From: Elusimicrobiota bacterium
Lineage (GTDB): Bacteria; Elusimicrobiota; Elusimicrobia; F11
Reading direction: 5' to 3'
Length of the DNA: 64,000 bases
Assembly (NCBI GenBank): GCA_022072025.1
Contig: JAJVIP010000002.1
Span: 225,356 to 289,355, forward strand
Positions 3,661-12,089 of this stretch are shown here, piece by piece (position 1 is the stretch's first letter; each line of letters starts with the position of its first letter). The notes under the pieces are model-generated. The model worked only from the letters and a program-made list of their open reading frames with translations, did no database searches and was not told the DNA's origin. Made by a program: the position numbers and the translations under genes.

Positions 3661-3680
3661 CCGATCAGTAATCCGTTTAG
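3661..3680. repeat. GATCAG motif, copy 1
   Basis: CCGATCAGTAATCCGTTTAG, 60 nt upstream of tRNA-fMet. The first 15 bases match the copies at 9740 and 10048 exactly; the second half-site is degenerate. Confidence 0.5.
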
Positions 3681-3740: not shown

Positions 3741-3816
<76 letters not shown>

Positions 3817-4121: not shown

Positions 4122-4739
4122 ATGGAACGTTTGTCATTTATTCTGACCATATTCTTTATGTTGCTGGGGCCGTTCAAAATCATTCCGGCTTTTGCCGGGT
4201 TAACGAAGGGAATGGATCTCCAGTTCAAACGGGCCGTAGCAATTCAAGCGGCAACGATCGCCTCTGTGCTCTGCGCCTTTGTGGTGATTGCTGGTACGGC
4301 GCTTCTTAATAAGTATCGCATCAGCATTGATGCTGTGCGGATAACAGGAGGATTGGTCTTATTACTTGCGGCATTAAACGCCATCTTCACAAAAGGATAA
4401 CCGTCGACTCCAGTTTCCGATACAACCAAGCCGATTCAACTCGCTGTTTCACCAATGGCTGTTCCAATCATCGTACCCCATGCGGGCATCGCCGCCATGT
4501 TGATATTCGTTTTGCATGCCCCGCATTATCCTGGAATGCTGAGACTCGTCCTCGTTAGTGTCGCGATCATGATGATTTTGGATTTTCTGACCATGTACTT
4601 TATCGACCAAATCTTGATGATACCGGCATTAACTCTCGTTCTTACGGTGCTTGGATCCGTCCTAATTTTTATGCAGGCCTGTTTGGCGACACAGATGATA
4701 CTGGTGGGACTGGGCTTGTTGAAACCCGTCAATTTTTAG
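4122..4739 (+). pseudogene. MarC-family membrane protein with an in-frame stop
   Basis: One reading frame runs 4122-4739, interrupted only by TAA at 4398-4400. The first half has the MarC-like start MLLGPFKIIPAFAGLTKG and a segment ITGGLVLLLAALNAIF. After the stop the same frame continues through PMAVPIIVPHAGIAAM, where MarC proteins have their conserved PLA.PL..GPG stretch, and ends with two more hydrophobic segments. Total length (205 codons) and about six membrane segments fit the family. There is no frameshift, so this is a single nonsense change, a sequencing error, or two separately made halves with an ATG at 4455. Confidence 0.7.
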
Positions 4740-4768
4740 TTGGTGAAATTTAAATAGGAGGCGTGAGT

Positions 4769-5980
4769 ATGGGAAACGTAACGATTGAGGATAAACAAAC
4801 ATCGTCAATAAAGGAAACGACGATGCAAAATACGAAATTGAGCACCGTTCCATTGAATTGGAAAGAGGTGTACTACACCAATTGTCCCCTCGTCTCGGCA
4901 AGCAATGTTGATCAGGAATTGGGATGGACCAAAGAGGAGTACAAGAAAATAGGGGTGAAGTACGCGTTTCTGCGCTCTGCACGCGAAAACGATTGGTATC
5001 CCCATTACATCCACAATCTGGACAACATGATCCGTTTCGGCGGCTTGTTTCCTCCTATTAATGTTCATGCTGACATTCGCAAAACCAGGCTCCTTGGGGT
5101 GACGCAAGTCTACGAAGGTGGCGTCATGATGGTACGCGCCAAGGACGATATTTATCGGATGGTTGAGCTGAAGGGTAAAAAGATTGGTCTGTCGAAGAGC
5201 ATGAATAGAATTAAGAATGACTGGTGGAGGATCCAAGAAGAACAAGGCATTGAGCTGATGCTCCGAATAAACGGCATGACTCGCAAGGATGTCGAGATCG
5301 TCGAATTCCCATATGCCGATGACTGGTATAACAATCCCTCCATGTTGGATCCGATGGAAAACCCGTCAGAATTGTGGCTGAAGCGTGATCATAAACATGA
5401 TTTGGCCTTCCGTCCGCTGGAAACTGCGCTGGAGAAGGGCATCGTGGATGCCATTTACAGTCAAAGTAAAGTTCTAAGTTGTCTCTCAGAGTTAACCGGT
5501 AAATTCAAAGCAATTGAAGATTTGTCTAGATATCCGGACTGGACCCTGCAAGTCGCCAACGTTCCTGCCGTCATCACCTGCACCGACGAGATGGCGGAAA
5601 AGCACCCCGAGCTTGCCGTGACATTTATGAAAGGCATGATCAAGGTGGGGCGCTGGTCTAATGAGCATAAGCATGCCGCAGCAGCGATTCTCGACAAGCA
5701 GACCTTCTATCGGGATGTTGAAGATACCTACGAAGGAATCAGGCGGGTCGATATGGTGCCTAATCTGTCTCCACAAAATCTTGCTTCTGTTGAGATAGGA
5801 AAGAACTTTATGTTGAGTCATGGATACATCAAGAACGACTTTGACGTGAAGCAGTGGGCAGCTCCGGAGTTTCTGGAGAAAGCGGCTCGAGAATTATTGG
5901 AAGAAGAGTGGAAGAAAAAAACCACGTTAAAGCTTCCTGAAACAGCAGCGCTCTTGCAATCCAAGCAGCAACTGGGCTAG
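4769..5980 (+). CDS. DszB-like sulfinate desulfinase / SsuA-like fold protein
   Basis: About 403 residues with the periplasmic-binding-protein fold of the NitT/TauT group but no signal peptide. It resembles DszB, the 2-(2'-hydroxyphenyl)benzenesulfinate desulfinase, more than transport proteins: YYTNCPLV near the N-terminus (DszB TYSNCPVP), IRFGGLFPP (TRFGGEIPP), TRLLGVT, KKIGLSKS and a C-terminal KQWAAPEFL (DQWAAPEFL). The DszB catalytic residues Cys27, His60 and Arg70 correspond to C39, H79 and R89, with the His-Arg spacing of 10 preserved. ATG 4769 has AGGAGG 7 nt upstream; a GTG at 4763 is less likely. A rhodanese follows 16 nt later, suggesting sulfur release or transfer. The substrate is unknown and need not be biphenyl. 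Confidence 0.75.
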   Translation: MGNVTIEDKQTSSIKETTMQNTKLSTVPLNWKEVYYTNCPLVSASNVDQELGWTKEEYKKIGVKYAFLRSARENDWYPHYIHNLDNMIRFGGLFPPINVHADIRKTRLLGVTQVYEGGVMMVRAKDDIYRMVELKGKKIGLSKSMNRIKNDWWRIQEEQGIELMLRINGMTRKDVEIVEFPYADDWYNNPSMLDPMENPSELWLKRDHKHDLAFRPLETALEKGIVDAIYSQSKVLSCLSELTGKFKAIEDLSRYPDWTLQVANVPAVITCTDEMAEKHPELAVTFMKGMIKVGRWSNEHKHAAAAILDKQTFYRDVEDTYEGIRRVDMVPNLSPQNLASVEIGKNFMLSHGYIKNDFDVKQWAAPEFLEKAARELLEEEWKKKTTLKLPETAALLQSKQQLG

Positions 5981-5996
5981 TGAGAGGGACATTAAA

Positions 5997-6581
5997 ATGA
6001 CAACCAAAGAAAATGAGAATGGAAATCCGATGTGTTGTGCGCCGGGCGATCTAACGTCATGCTTGCCAAAACCCGGGGCAGAGATTGCGAACGGAAAACA
6101 AACAGTGCTGAATCTTTATCTAACGGCGAAAGAGGCCTACGAAAAATGGCAGGCCGAGCCAGAGAAGGTAAAGATTGTTGATGTTAGGACACCAGAGGAG
6201 TATCTCTTTGTCGGCCATCCAGAAATGGCGTGGAAGATACCTGTCGCAACTCAATCTTATGAATGGGATGCTGAAAAGAAGAAATTTCCGATGAATCCCT
6301 TGCCTGATTTCGTGTCCAGAGTGAGCAAGGTGGCAAAGAAAGACGAAACGCTTTTGCTGATGTGTCGGTCCGGTGGCCGCAGCGCGCTTGCTGTCAACCT
6401 TCTCGCCAAAGCCGGGTTTAAGAATGTTTACACCATTATTGACGGCATGGAAGGAGACGTTGTTGCGGACGTGAATAGTGTGTTTTTGGGGCAGCGCCAT
6501 ACGAACGGCTGGAAAAATTCAGGGTGTCCCTGGACGTACAAACTCACTCCCGACCGGATGTTGCTCCCGAATGGTCAATAA
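5997..6581 (+). CDS. Rhodanese-domain sulfurtransferase
   Basis: A 194-residue single rhodanese domain of the cytoplasmic type. VKIVDVRTPEEYLFVGHP starts the domain near residue 58, and the active-site loop CRSGGRS places catalytic cysteine at C123. An N-terminal extension holds three cysteines (C13, C14, C22) and the tail has GWKNSGCPW. Rhodaneses move sulfane sulfur through a Cys persulfide. It lies 16 nt after the DszB-like gene with its own GAGAGGGA ribosome site, and a DUF202 membrane protein follows, so the three probably form one sulfur-handling operon; that is inferred from order alone. Confidence 0.88.
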   Translation: MTTKENENGNPMCCAPGDLTSCLPKPGAEIANGKQTVLNLYLTAKEAYEKWQAEPEKVKIVDVRTPEEYLFVGHPEMAWKIPVATQSYEWDAEKKKFPMNPLPDFVSRVSKVAKKDETLLLMCRSGGRSALAVNLLAKAGFKNVYTIIDGMEGDVVADVNSVFLGQRHTNGWKNSGCPWTYKLTPDRMLLPNGQ

Positions 6582-7102: not shown

Positions 7103-8491
7103 TTAGAATGAAAATCCGTAGTCGAAGGTCACAAAAGGCTGGATCTGCGGTTCCATGATCGTGATCTGTTCTGTACCGAGGATAACTTCCTCGCTTCCAC
7201 TTAATGGTTTCCAAGCGGTCACACCAATTTTCATCGCCAGACCCTTCTGAGGAACTCCGCCGAAAGGAATTACCAGAGCTAAATCACCTGCGAGTACATC
7301 CTGGTTCGATTTAACATCTCCAGTTGTGGTTTGATTAGGAACAAGAAAACCTTCTTGACGTCTTCCAAGGCGGATTTCGGCCATGAGGCTTGCCCCCGGC
7401 AATCCTTCCCAGCCAGGATAGTAGTGTGCTGCTGGTCCAACGGTTAAGCTGCGTTGAAACTCGTCCCATCCTTCCGGTGCGTCTTTTGGCATTTCGCCGC
7501 CAGTGAACACACTGGTTAAGCCCCATCGCCATTTTGGACTCCACGACCAACGGCTCGGAGCCAACCAAGCCAGATCACTTCGCACTCCGAAGTAAGGAAC
7601 CTCGGCACCAAGACTCAATACGATGTCGTGGCCTCGATCATCCGAAGAAGGTGCAGGGACAGAGTCATCCTCCAAAAGTGTCAGCCATCCGTAACCATAA
7701 GTGGAGCCAATCTTGTGGCCCAAATCGAGAGCGACGGGCCCTGCTTTAAATCCGATGACGGAATAAACACCCTCTTCCTGATGAAAGGTATTGTCAACGA
7801 CATGTCCTGTGTCACCAGCAGAACGTGCTTCTCCTCGGAAGCCCGTATAGAGAGTGACCTTTTTTGGATGCCATGAGCCATACGCACCGGCGGAGAGTTC
7901 CGCTTGACCCGCCGTGGTCACCAACCCCTGAATTGGAAACCACATGCCCCATTTGTTCTTTCTATCCAGATGCGAGAAATAATTGAAGGAAACCAATGGG
8001 CCAAGGTCGAGCCGACTTATATCTTCATAAGCGAGGTTGACTGGATTATTTTGAATAACCTCGTGGATTCCATTTTGTATCGCGGCTCCATTTAATTCAC
8101 CCGTTCGACGCAAAACGACGCCGAAGAGAAATTCCCGAGCATCTCCCTCTTTCTCCTTTGAAAAAATCCATCGACGAGAAAAGGACAAGGTCATTTGATC
8201 GATTCGGCCTTCTTCAGCCAGATCATTTTGACTGGTGGGACCTTTATCGGTTAAGGCGCTCAAATTGAGATTCAAGAATAAGTTGTTGGTTACACGGAAT
8301 CCAAAAGCTGTTTCTGTCGTACGATAGTCATCCTCATTCTTATCCAAGAGCCCAAAAAAGTCGTTGCCAAATCGAGCATAGAAATGAGGAAGTTTCCCAG
8401 GGGCTGGAGCCGCCGGTGTGCCGGCCAGCTCAGCCCAAAGAGGAAATTGACAAAGAAAAAAAACAATTAAACCTAAGCTTATTTTTTTCGT
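7103..8491 (-). CDS. Outer-membrane beta-barrel-like protein, probable ACG start
   Basis: Residues 49-462 are a beta-strand-rich protein ending in VTFDYGFSF, a terminal-Phe outer-membrane signature. No ATG, GTG or TTG gives a signal peptide; the first usual start is TTG at 8347. The frame is open further upstream to ACG at 8489-8491, which is followed by KKISLGLIVFFLCQFPLWAELA, a clear Sec signal, and preceded by AGGAG (8499-8503) at the ideal 7-nt distance. The real start is therefore probably ACG, either a non-canonical start or a mutated ATG. It is 21 nt downstream of another outer-membrane gene. Family not recognised. Confidence 0.65.
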   Translation of the reverse strand, partial: TKKISLGLIVFFLCQFPLWAELAGTPAAPAPGKLPHFYARFGNDFFGLLDKNEDDYRTTETAFGFRVTNNLFLNLNLSALTDKGPTSQNDLAEEGRIDQMTLSFSRRWIFSKEKEGDAREFLFGVVLRRTGELNGAAIQNGIHEVIQNNPVNLAYEDISRLDLGPLVSFNYFSHLDRKNKWGMWFPIQGLVTTAGQAELSAGAYGSWHPKKVTLYTGFRGEARSAGDTGHVVDNTFHQEEGVYSVIGFKAGPVALDLGHKIGSTYGYGWLTLLEDDSVPAPSSDDRGHDIVLSLGAEVPYFGVRSDLAWLAPSRWSWSPKWRWGLTSVFTGGEMPKDAPEGWDEFQRSLTVGPAAHYYPGWEGLPGASLMAEIRLGRRQEGFLVPNQTTTGDVKSNQDVLAGDLALVIPFGGVPQKGLAMKIGVTAWKPLSGSEEVILGTEQITIMEPQIQPFVTFDYGFSF

Positions 8492-8512: not shown

Positions 8513-9370
8513 TTAAAATTGAAAAGAAACGCCCAATGAGGGCCCGCTGAAACTCAATTTATCGATGAGCTTCGATCCGCTGGTTTGATAATCCAGATAT
8601 CGATAATTGGCTGAAATCTCACCCCAGTTAAAGGCATAGGAAAGCCCCGCTGATCCCTGCCAAGTTAAAGCCGATTCGCCGGTTCCGATATCAAAATAAT
8701 ATGGAAGAGCGAATTTAGTCTCACTGAGGTGAACTTGACCGCGGAACCCGACTAACATATCCCAAAGAGCTTCGCTCCCATGCACGCTTCCTGACTGTTG
8801 AAATGTTTCTCCCGGGCCTGGGCCTGCCACAGCCCCTGTTAAATTCCAATCCGTTCTTGCGGACAGGTTAAAGTAACGAAGACCAATTGTGGGCTCGAAT
8901 GAAATCTTTTTTGAATCGAGACATCGATATCCAGAAAGCAGCGTCCATTCCGTCATTTCCATCGTCGTTTCGGTTCCCGCATTAGCCGAAGCATTGATTG
9001 GAATTCGGTTGCCAGAATTAAACTCCGCTGATTTAACCCGGCTCTTCTCGTTCTCAATTTTCATGTAGTTAAAATCAGAAAATAGGGACCAATGCCCAAA
9101 CCGCGCCTCGATCTGAAACGGGAATATCATTTTGATATTGCCCACGTAGTCTTCCGGGGGAACGGTGACATCTGCTTCTCTTGATCCACTCGCTCCGTCA
9201 TACTTCAATGTCGACCCGATATCGGCCAACCAAAAATAGGGTGTGATGGCGAATGTCCATTTTTCGTCAGGTTCAGAGGCGTTTCCTTGGGCAAAGGAAC
9301 TTGAAGTCCCCAAAAACATGGTTGTTATGAAACATCCAACCGAAATAAGTAACGCAAATATCAATTTCAT
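8513..9370 (-). CDS. Outer-membrane beta-barrel protein
   Basis: About 285 residues with a Sec signal (MKLIFALLISVGCFITTMF ... SSSFAQ) and a barrel-like body starting WTFAITPYFWLADIGSTL, a pattern seen in many uncharacterised outer-membrane proteins. It has alternating strands and a terminal SLGVSFQF. ATG 9370 gives the most typical signal; ATG 9382 in the same frame is possible. It is first of a two-gene minus-strand unit with the ACG-start gene, transcribed toward the sulfur genes. No substrate can be inferred. Confidence 0.7.
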   Translation of the reverse strand: MKLIFALLISVGCFITTMFLGTSSSFAQGNASEPDEKWTFAITPYFWLADIGSTLKYDGASGSREADVTVPPEDYVGNIKMIFPFQIEARFGHWSLFSDFNYMKIENEKSRVKSAEFNSGNRIPINASANAGTETTMEMTEWTLLSGYRCLDSKKISFEPTIGLRYFNLSARTDWNLTGAVAGPGPGETFQQSGSVHGSEALWDMLVGFRGQVHLSETKFALPYYFDIGTGESALTWQGSAGLSYAFNWGEISANYRYLDYQTSGSKLIDKLSFSGPSLGVSFQF

Positions 9371-9407
9371 GGAGCATAGCATCCATCGTTGAAATAATTT
9401 TCATCGA

Positions 9408-9833: not shown

Positions 9834-9895
<62 letters not shown>

Positions 9896-10067: not shown

Positions 10068-10448
10068 ATGTTGGAGATATTGTTGGACAAATCAAAAATT
10101 AATCAAAACCGAAAATTCATTGTTAATGGACGTGAATTTGGTTCACTTCAAAGCCTGGCGAGGGAATATGGGCTGTCCAACAACACGGTTAGTTACCGGC
10201 TTTCAAAAGGATGGACGCCGGACGAAGCTATTGGCCTACAGCCCCGACCAAGTCACGCTGGTAACACTCCAGGTATAGCAGTAAAAGTGCAAGGTCTTGA
10301 GTTCTCCAACATCAAATATCACACAAATCTTGCGAAGTGTGCTGGTAGCGGCTTAAGAATGCAGGCCCGCAGAAATGAATATTGGATTTTGTGGCCGCCC
10401 GATGCCATACCACCTTCTATCTATTTGTTGATCAGCCCCTCGATTTGA
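10068..10448 (+). CDS. Putative helix-turn-helix protein of the accessory block
   Basis: 126 residues. Residues 18-57 (FIVNGREFGSLQSLAREYG then LSNNTVSYRLSKGWTPDEAI) look like a short HTH module common in phage and integrative-element proteins; the remainder may be a second, degenerate module. The ATG follows the GATCAG motif directly and no ribosome site is seen, so the true start is uncertain. The 3' end overlaps the convergent AbiEii gene by 28 bp. A DNA-binding role in the element is inferred. Confidence 0.5.
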   Translation: MLEILLDKSKINQNRKFIVNGREFGSLQSLAREYGLSNNTVSYRLSKGWTPDEAIGLQPRPSHAGNTPGIAVKVQGLEFSNIKYHTNLAKCAGSGLRMQARRNEYWILWPPDAIPPSIYLLISPSI

Positions 10449-11461
10449 CCCAGTTCGCTCATCAATTCATCAAACGGTGGTGGGGTACCAAAAATCATCT
10501 CGCGCATTTTGGCGTAGTCATCCTCCAATTCCTTTTTCCGGTTTGGAGGTGGGAGAAGTTTCAGGTTGCCGGGGGTGGCCAGATCATAACGGGCGGCAGC
10601 TGAGGCGAAAAAAATCGATTTGTGGGTGACCACGTTTCTCAAGAGACCCAAATCGGCGATGGCTTTTTGGCCGGATTCGGTTTCATAAAGTTTCACGAAG
10701 TCGTAATAATGGCGGGATTGGCGGTCGGGGATCCGTTTTGTTGATGGAAGGTAGTAAAGCATGTGCAGGATGGTGGCCTTCTCCCAAAAGGTGCGCTCGG
10801 CAGAAAGCGCTTTGACCCGGCAGGAGGGATTTTTAAAGGGTTTGGGGACAACCTCCGCCGCATAGGGTATGACCTCGGCCCATTCGGCAGGCCATTGCTC
10901 GCCACGCGCTCCCAGTTCTAGGCGAACATTGGGGCGAGAATATCGCGGTTGAGAAGCTCCGCCCTCATCAATTCCTTTTGGATAATGGAAAACCAGCGTC
11001 TGTTGGTCAGGATCGTCCGGATCGAGTTCGATATTCCATGATCCTTTGGATGGGGACGTGCCGAGCGCATTCTTAAATTCCTTTTCGAGTTGCGGCAGGA
11101 ATTTCGCCCGAATTATTTCCTGGCAGGTTGCTGATAACTTTTCCAATCGTTTTTCTGTTTGAGATCTACTGGAGGCCTTGGCTGGATCCTTGTCGTCTCC
11201 GAATCCCATCGCGCTTCTGTCGAATGAGAGATCCACATCTTCAGAAAAGCGGTCGATTGCGCTGTACACCTTGGAAAGACTTGTCCCGCCTTTAAAAACG
11301 AGACCGGCCGGTGGACTCTTCAGGGTAAAGATCCGTTGGAGAGTCCAACAAACCCAGAAGTCTTTTTCGATCAGGGCGGGTCGAATGTTCCCGCATAAAC
11401 TGGCGGCTGTTTGGAATAGATCCGTTCGATCTTGAGCGGAAAGGCGGGCTACGTCATCCAT
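10421..11461 (-). CDS. abiEii: AbiEii-type nucleotidyltransferase toxin
   Basis: 346 residues from ATG 11461 (MDDVARLSAQDR). The nucleotidyltransferase core FKGGTSLSKVYSAIDRFSED plus VDLSF supplies the GS motif and paired acidic residues of the AbiEii/MenT superfamily, and WEKATILHMLYY is typical of the downstream helical part. Such toxins transfer nucleotides to tRNA or other targets; the target here is unknown. The ATG lies inside the last codons of the upstream antitoxin gene (8-bp overlap), so the pair is translationally coupled. Longer in-frame codons upstream of 11461 lie within the antitoxin gene. Confidence 0.85.
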   Translation of the reverse strand: MDDVARLSAQDRTDLFQTAASLCGNIRPALIEKDFWVCWTLQRIFTLKSPPAGLVFKGGTSLSKVYSAIDRFSEDVDLSFDRSAMGFGDDKDPAKASSRSQTEKRLEKLSATCQEIIRAKFLPQLEKEFKNALGTSPSKGSWNIELDPDDPDQQTLVFHYPKGIDEGGASQPRYSRPNVRLELGARGEQWPAEWAEVIPYAAEVVPKPFKNPSCRVKALSAERTFWEKATILHMLYYLPSTKRIPDRQSRHYYDFVKLYETESGQKAIADLGLLRNVVTHKSIFFASAAARYDLATPGNLKLLPPPNRKKELEDDYAKMREMIFGTPPPFDELMSELGQIEGLINK

Positions 11462-12089
11462 GAGCCACACCTTTGGTTTGATTATTGGTGGAGCAGATCT
11501 CCCGAATGGCGGCGGCCACCCAATCCGTGACGTACCTGGCATCTCTTAACAATTGCTTGCGCTCCTTTGGGGAGAGGCGACGACGCAAGTGGGACAGGGT
11601 GTTGGGTCCAACAGCTTCGTGGCCCAAATGGCGTAGGGCTTGAAACACCAATGCGCTCATTGGCCGTCCCAAGGGAAGGTCTTTGGGGGGGGCGTGTATA
11701 AGCAAGAAGGTGGTTTTGCCGACCCGCACACTGCGCGTTCTTCCATCCGTCAGATAGACCGGCTTGGCCGGGACCTGAGTTGATAGGCCAAGCGAATTGG
11801 CGGCTACCGCGCCAGAGGGAACGACCCGGCTGCCCGTCTTTCTGCCAAGGGCTTGGGCGATTTGATCAATGTTGGGAGCCAGGTCGATGCCCAATCTCGG
11901 ATTTGTTCGGGGAATGCGGTAAAGGCCCCGTCCGATTTTCTGGATCACTTTGTTATTGGCAAGGCGTTTGAGGGCCTGGTCGACCGCGGCGCGAGCGCCC
12001 AAATCCAAAAAGTCTTTGCTGGTGTAGACCCTGGTTTTGTCTTGGCGCATTCGGGCTAATACTTTAGATGGTACTTTATCACGTTTCAT
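11454..12089 (-). CDS. abiEi: AbiEi-type antitoxin (DUF6088-like)
   Basis: 211 residues. The N-terminal winged-helix region includes SKDFLDLGARAAVDQAL and LANNKVIQKIGRGLYRIP, typical of AbiEi/DUF6088 antitoxins that bind their own promoter. The remainder resembles the C-terminal antitoxin domain. A 34-bp near-perfect palindrome overlaps the start codon, an obvious site for autorepression. It precedes and overlaps the toxin gene. Confidence 0.85.
   Translation of the reverse strand: MKRDKVPSKVLARMRQDKTRVYTSKDFLDLGARAAVDQALKRLANNKVIQKIGRGLYRIPRTNPRLGIDLAPNIDQIAQALGRKTGSRVVPSGAVAANSLGLSTQVPAKPVYLTDGRTRSVRVGKTTFLLIHAPPKDLPLGRPMSALVFQALRHLGHEAVGPNTLSHLRRRLSPKERKQLLRDARYVTDWVAAAIREICSTNNQTKGVAHG

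Follow-up and report, generated by a model that had tools for sequence, protein, structure and literature searches.

Desulfinases of the DszB fold are known mainly from a fuel-desulfurisation pathway whose enzymes are slow. In DszB, functional roles have been described for residues Cys27, His60, Arg70, Ser25 and Gly73, and the loops 55-62 and 187-204 reorder upon substrate binding (PMC6100217). The window analysed here, which is the whole 64,000-nt stretch of DNA from an Elusimicrobiota bacterium, encodes a DszB-like protein next to a rhodanese (Table 1). The widespread, horizontally moving gene for this protein, usually located beside a sulfur-transfer enzyme, suggests an overlooked way to free sulfur from organic compounds.

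Table 1. Features at the DszB-like locus, in positions of the window.
Feature	Position	Strand	Evidence
tRNA-Met (CAT), integration target	3741..3814	+	ARAGORN, Rfam
Left 62-bp repeat copy: tRNA 3' end, putative attachment site	3755..3816	+	Exact repeat of 9834-9895
MarC-family membrane protein gene, split by in-frame TAA (4398-4400)	4122..4739	+	PF01914 on first part; both parts in one frame
DszB-like protein, 403 aa; Cys39, His79, His82, Arg89, Thr37	4769..5980	+	ORF, sequence and structure comparison
Single-domain rhodanese, 194 aa; active-site loop C123-R-S-G-G-R; Cys-rich N-terminal tag NPMCCAPGDLTS	5997..6581	+	PF00581, E 9.1e-14, 52 bits
DUF202 membrane protein, 142 aa	6608..7036	+	PF02656, E 6.6e-13; same set in other phyla
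Probable outer-membrane beta-barrel protein, within island	7103..8347	-	No Pfam match; inferred from sequence, by inspection
Secreted probable beta-barrel protein	8513..9382	-	tblastn
Right 62-bp repeat copy; end of 6.1-kb island	9834..9895	+	Exact repeat

The DszB-like protein of the window

The ORF of the DszB-like protein starts at an ATG that follows an AGGAGG by about 7 nt; the alternative start, GTG in the same frame at 4763, was discarded for being too near this AGGAGG. When the protein was aligned with DszB, Cys27, His60 and Arg70 of the latter corresponded to Cys39 (TGT, 4883-4885), His79 (CAT, 5003-5005) and Arg89 (CGT, 5033-5035), just as the sequence-only reading had claimed, and the alignment also upheld its observation that the spacing of 10 residues between His and Arg is kept, as is QWAAPEFL at the C-terminus. 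In addition, the DszB dyad partner Ser25 aligned with Thr37, and Gly73 with Gly92. The DszB sequence used in these alignments is the one that we take to be that of IGTS8, the aligned stretches being independently confirmed by the PDB match. A phmmer search of the PDB with the window protein returned the DszB entries 2de2, 2de3 and 2de4 alone (E 4.5e-11 and 3.5e-10), and a profile-profile comparison matched it to DszB-type proteins with an E value of 8.5e-42; therefore, the likeness to DszB is more than chance. No family was matched by the protein in a Pfam search.

An AlphaFold model of the window protein was obtained with a pLDDT of 88 and a pTM of 0.87. Foldseek with this model ranked DszB in positions 1-3 (2de3 with E 2.4e-19; TM 0.73-0.74 by target length), followed by SsuA (E 6.5e-15), TauA and Thi5. 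The inner segments of lowest confidence, 71-90 and 181-220, aligned with the DszB loops 55-62 and 187-204, and are the probable counterparts of these reordering loops. Regarding the aromatic pocket of DszB (Phe61/Trp155/Phe203), Tyr80 and Trp203 of the window protein aligned with it and the Trp155 segment had no counterpart, so the pocket probably differs.

Members of the family are annotated in plasmid records as ABC-transporter solute-binding proteins, the usual annotation, and the NCBI SsuA model TIGR01728 does match the window protein weakly, at 59 bits. This score is nevertheless below the cut-off of 163.5 bits, no signal peptide was seen by inspection in the window protein or in most family members, and an ABC ATPase and an ABC permease were each found within 3 kb of the gene in 1 of the 79 family loci described below. 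In the alignment, E. coli SsuA and TauA were also without the Cys, His and Arg. The sequence-only reading had argued against transport, and this stands: such a role is highly improbable, being effectively excluded by the missing signal, the missing ABC partners and the sub-cut-off SsuA score. The window protein is a signal-less DszB-like protein, which confirms the earlier observation.

Conservation and spread of the family

When 84,980 species genomes were scanned for two short peptide patterns, 95 relatives were revealed, 80 of which were kept, representing 79 loci. They constitute a discrete family, 63-89% identical to the window protein, that is distributed over 14 or more phyla of bacteria and archaea and has members in methanogens. 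Family members scored 555-807 bits with the family model, compared with 84-127 bits for the next relatives, 53 for DszB and 13.5 for a Sphingobium SsuA, and in the tree the family was a separate clade with support of 100/99. Thus, DszB is no close relative. By tblastn against plasmids, proteins 74% and 68% identical were detected on Rhizobium plasmids, after which identity fell to about 27%, and no relatives were found in the viral contigs searched. As the matches include isolates (Flavihumibacter, Nocardioides, Chelatococcus, Kaistia, Synechococcus, Lutimonas, Tateyamaria and Pseudomonas), the family is not merely made up of mis-binned metagenome contigs.

Conservation was assessed in 81 full-length family proteins. 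Residues C39, H79, H82, R89, T37, N38, G91 and G92 were invariant or nearly so, although the invariance of His79 is partly built in, as it lies inside one of the search patterns, whereas Cys39 and Arg89 lie outside both. No variation at all was detected in the aligned family for C39, R89, T37, N38, G91 and G92, and C39 was its sole invariant cysteine. When the window gene was compared with six relatives, pN was 0.06-0.16 against a saturated or nearly saturated pS of 0.71-0.84, indicating that purifying selection is strong.

The labels of the 14 phyla required 30 changes on the tree (minimum 13), a pattern consistent with repeated horizontal transfer, although bins may hold foreign contigs. The closest row to the window protein was a Thermodesulfobacteriota bin. 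Within the phylum of the window the gene was present in 1 of the 295 genomes searched, which rules out vertical inheritance at phylum level in this lineage. Searches of the literature for the family, for the DszB-like/rhodanese pair and for the rhodanese/DUF202/MarC set found no published description. The family is of the DszB kind, its members not being orthologues of DszB.

In L052, L076, L085 and L086 (L numbers denote loci), DszB-like proteins are extended at the N-terminus by a region that is probably helical, together with a Lys/Ala/Pro linker, and in L052 (Tateyamaria pelophila) three family genes lie within about 8 kb.

Six DszB-like members (L037, L053, L064, L069, L072 and L077) have Tat-type N-termini by inspection (e.g. 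SRRDFLHNAAVLAVAGVAGVSTTASAQE). Tat export is typical for pre-folded, often cofactor-bearing proteins. Such signals, together with the presence of His82 (Tyr63 in DszB), which is invariant or nearly so and is matched by a His in most distant relatives that were examined (H-x-x-H), could point to a metal- or cofactor-dependent enzyme that performs another chemistry through Cys39, His79 and His82. However, the Tat signal is absent from most members, and Cu and Zn are inhibitors of DszB, whose proposed mechanisms require no metal (PMC6100217); such an enzyme is consequently regarded as quite improbable.

Genomic context

The location of the gene on a tRNA island, proposed from the sequence alone, was supported and sharpened by the exact repeat of the tRNA-Met 3' end, whose two copies are identical at 62/62 bp, are 6,079 bp apart and bound a 6.1-kb insert. 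These are the only two full copies in the whole genome. No integrase-like ORF was seen between them by inspection of the ORFs, and for an empty-site comparison at the tRNA-Met the nearest relatives were too distant. A motif of 20-27 nt (CCGATCAGTAATCCGATCAG) is present in four copies, at 3661, 3977, 9740 and 10048, flanking both attachment-like sites, with no copies elsewhere in the window; these could possibly be recombinase arm sites. Apart from one tRNA-Pro in L067, no tRNA genes adjoin the other family loci, which makes the tRNA site a peculiarity of the genome of the window. Regarding the secreted probable beta-barrel protein of the island, relatives with 25-31% identity were detected by tblastn beside the family gene in 6 other loci, and a related family (F005) in 14. 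Just past the island, two genes on the minus strand (10421-12089) resemble by inspection an AbiEii/AbiEi-type toxin-antitoxin pair.

As described in the sequence-only reading, the rhodanese gene follows 16 nt after the stop codon of the DszB-like gene, and the DUF202 gene comes next, after a gap of 26 nt. The absence of dszA/dszC and of ABC permease or ATPase genes, also claimed there, was corroborated among the surrounding ORFs examined, and neither dszA nor dszC appeared among the recurrent neighbour families of the whole family; with no dszA/dszC operon, the claim that the locus does not serve dibenzothiophene desulfurisation holds. The predicted tie to sulfur transfer was found across the family as well, with a rhodanese domain in 61 of the 79 loci. 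Rhodanese domains occur at about 0.9 per Mb in 21 related genomes (42 listed), from which about 0.4 loci would be expected to have one within 3 kb by chance. The profile employed was seeded from these same loci and some of the weak matches (below about 50 bits) may be marginal; strong matches, above 100 bits, were obtained in roughly 34 loci. The domain lay within 500 nt in 40 loci and within 3 kb in 56, nearly always on the same strand, these distances having been taken between stop-to-stop frames, with a slight bias to adjacency. The active-site residues C123, G126 and R128 of the rhodanese showed little or no variation among 33 sequences. Furthermore, the divergence of neighbouring DszB-like and rhodanese proteins was correlated (r 0.35), with 0 of 2000 permutations reaching such a value. 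In three of the loci with a Tat-type DszB-like protein (L037, L069 and L077) the adjoining rhodanese likewise seems by inspection to carry a signal peptide, and these matching locations argue that both proteins work together; in L030 and L085 the rhodanese seems by inspection to be exported and the DszB-like protein not.

The DszB-like/rhodanese/DUF202 trio was found again in other phyla: in L056, L062, L065 and L067, and in variant form in L074 and L022. With MarC added, the set was present in the same four loci, with variants in L022, L027 and L074. Other recurrent neighbours were SulP (31 loci), sodium-bile-acid-type symporters (19), DUF202 (11) and MarC (8, window included), in addition to beta-barrel proteins and lineage-specific regulators of AraC, LuxR or MalT type; two ORF-cluster families, F008 and F022, were antisense artefacts and were dropped. 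These dedicated regulators adjoining the gene, and a fold common to solute-binding proteins, would be compatible with a non-catalytic cytosolic binder or sensor of sulfur compounds partnered with the rhodanese. Nevertheless, as the lineages have their own DNA-binding regulators, the DszB-like protein need not sense, and its invariant Cys/His/Arg set occupies the catalytic positions of DszB, so a binder or sensor appears improbable.

A CoA-disulfide/persulfide reductase with a rhodanese domain (CoADR-Rhd) was encoded in 23 loci, with related genes in L003, L082 and L084; it is nearest to the CoA-disulfide/persulfide reductases 3icr, 3nta and 8a56, and no close homologue was found in the genome of the window. 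In Pseudomonas sp. N040 (L048), an AlkB/XylM-type hydroxylase (FA_desaturase domain) and its ferredoxin reductase are encoded upstream of the gene, and an oxidoreductase, an MFS transporter, a TauD-type dioxygenase, a two-domain rhodanese, a sulfite-oxidase-type molybdoenzyme and a cytochrome c downstream. The arrangement resembles a catabolic cluster with sulfite as its end point, and is the strongest clue from context.

Because rhodanese and CoADR-Rhd, the commonest partners, handle persulfide sulfur, the main rival to a desulfinase is a sulfane-sulfur enzyme, in which Cys39 would take up a sulfur atom by persulfide, thiosulfonate or thiosulfate chemistry and pass it to the rhodanese and the CoA-persulfide reductase, sulfite not being the main product. 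In contrast, Arg89/Gly92 and the nearest fold fit the sulfinate-binding DszB, and sulfite-oxidase-type enzymes are encoded in the clusters of Pseudomonas N040 and S. meliloti. Sulfane-sulfur chemistry is thus held to be unlikely, though it deserves serious consideration.

Several other features were observed in these loci. A motif like GDPTACSPGDLSK was present at the N-terminus of the DszB-like protein in nine loci (L011-L016, L019, L021 and L078), and the rhodaneses of the window (6021-6056), L055 and L058 bear variants of this motif; this type of tag is common to two unrelated proteins of one module, and in the genome of the window only the rhodanese bears it. In L002 (6514-11942) and L087, the family gene lies beside a benzoyl-CoA-reductase/2-hydroxyacyl-CoA-dehydratase-like pair, and on the Rhizobium plasmid of L002 it is placed between this pair and two activases. 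Such an ATP-dependent enzyme was dismissed as a partner, being not general and absent from the genome of the window. In seven loci from different phyla (L011, L019, L034, L042, L049, L050 and L055), a glycyl radical enzyme (78-92% similar) was encoded with a phosphofructokinase and an activase. Its assignment as an isethionate sulfite-lyase was rejected, as among solved structures it is nearest to hydroxyproline and glycerol dehydratases, and it thus gives no evidence for sulfonate cleavage.

Proposed function and comparison with known systems

We propose, with confidence evenly balanced, that the DszB-like protein is a soluble Cys-dependent, desulfinase-like enzyme of the DszB fold that forms one functional unit with the adjoining rhodanese. 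The observations behind this proposal are the homology, the invariant catalytic set, the frequent linkage to rhodanese, the lack of transporter partners, the purifying selection and the spread across phyla. Catalysis, a sulfinate substrate, sulfite as the product and the direction of the sulfur flow are suggested by analogy. Cys39, helped by His79/Thr37 and by an anion-binding site at Arg89/Gly92, would cleave the C-S bond of an organic sulfinate-like compound to yield sulfite (SO2), as in DszB. The next step, an exchange of sulfur between persulfide and sulfite (thiosulfate), would fall to the rhodanese; in the richer clusters a CoA-persulfide reductase, a SulP carrier or a sulfite oxidase would handle the inorganic product. 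Counted against a desulfinase are the missing counterpart of the Trp155 segment, the lack, in most members, of a linked sulfinate-producing monooxygenase, and the fact that the rhodanese and persulfide-reductase partners indicate sulfane sulfur at least equally with sulfite. No assayed enzyme of this family was found in the literature.

A broader proposal, held with slightly less than even confidence, is that a DszB-like C-S lyase and its dedicated rhodanese constitute a pan-phylum, horizontally moving two-protein module by which aerobes, anaerobes and methanogens free inorganic sulfur from an organosulfur compound that is common in nature; it would reside in the cytoplasm of most and the periplasm of some, having so far been filed as 'ABC transporter substrate-binding protein'. 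If true, this would reveal an overlooked step of environmental organosulfur turnover in a strongly conserved family of 14 or more phyla, put right a long-lived misannotation and supply biodesulfurisation with many natural homologues. The DszB-like/rhodanese pair is small and can be tested directly.

Among known systems, the rhodanese/CoA-persulfide reductase modules (CoADR-Rhd, Npsr) share the sulfur-transfer partners of the family loci, and none with a DszB-like partner is known as far as found in the literature. The sulfonate and taurine binding proteins SsuA and TauA have the same fold and the G-x-x-PP region, but are exported, without the Cys/His/Arg set, and linked to an ABC permease and ATPase. 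Closer in kind are the DszB-like proteins of rhizobia, Sphingobium and Variovorax (YTRCPVPTP-type motif), also annotated as 'ABC transporter substrate-binding protein', most of which keep the Cys, His and Arg positions and which are often encoded near sulfurtransferase or sulfite oxidase genes, as seen in rhizobia and Variovorax. They differ in their scores (84-127 vs. 555-807 bits), in the absence of QWAAPEFL and in the linkage of several of them to LLM flavin monooxygenases. Finally, DszB itself (2'-hydroxybiphenyl-2-sulfinate desulfinase, EC 3.13.1.3; PDB 2de2/2de3/2de4) has in common with the window protein the fold, the Cys-His-Arg set, the RxGG motif and the QWAAPEFL tail, whereas identity is about 25%, dszA/dszC and the Trp155 segment are missing, Thr37 replaces Ser25 and His82 replaces Tyr63, and the family of the window has a frequent rhodanese partner and a specific segment of its own, KRDHKHDLAFRPLETAL.
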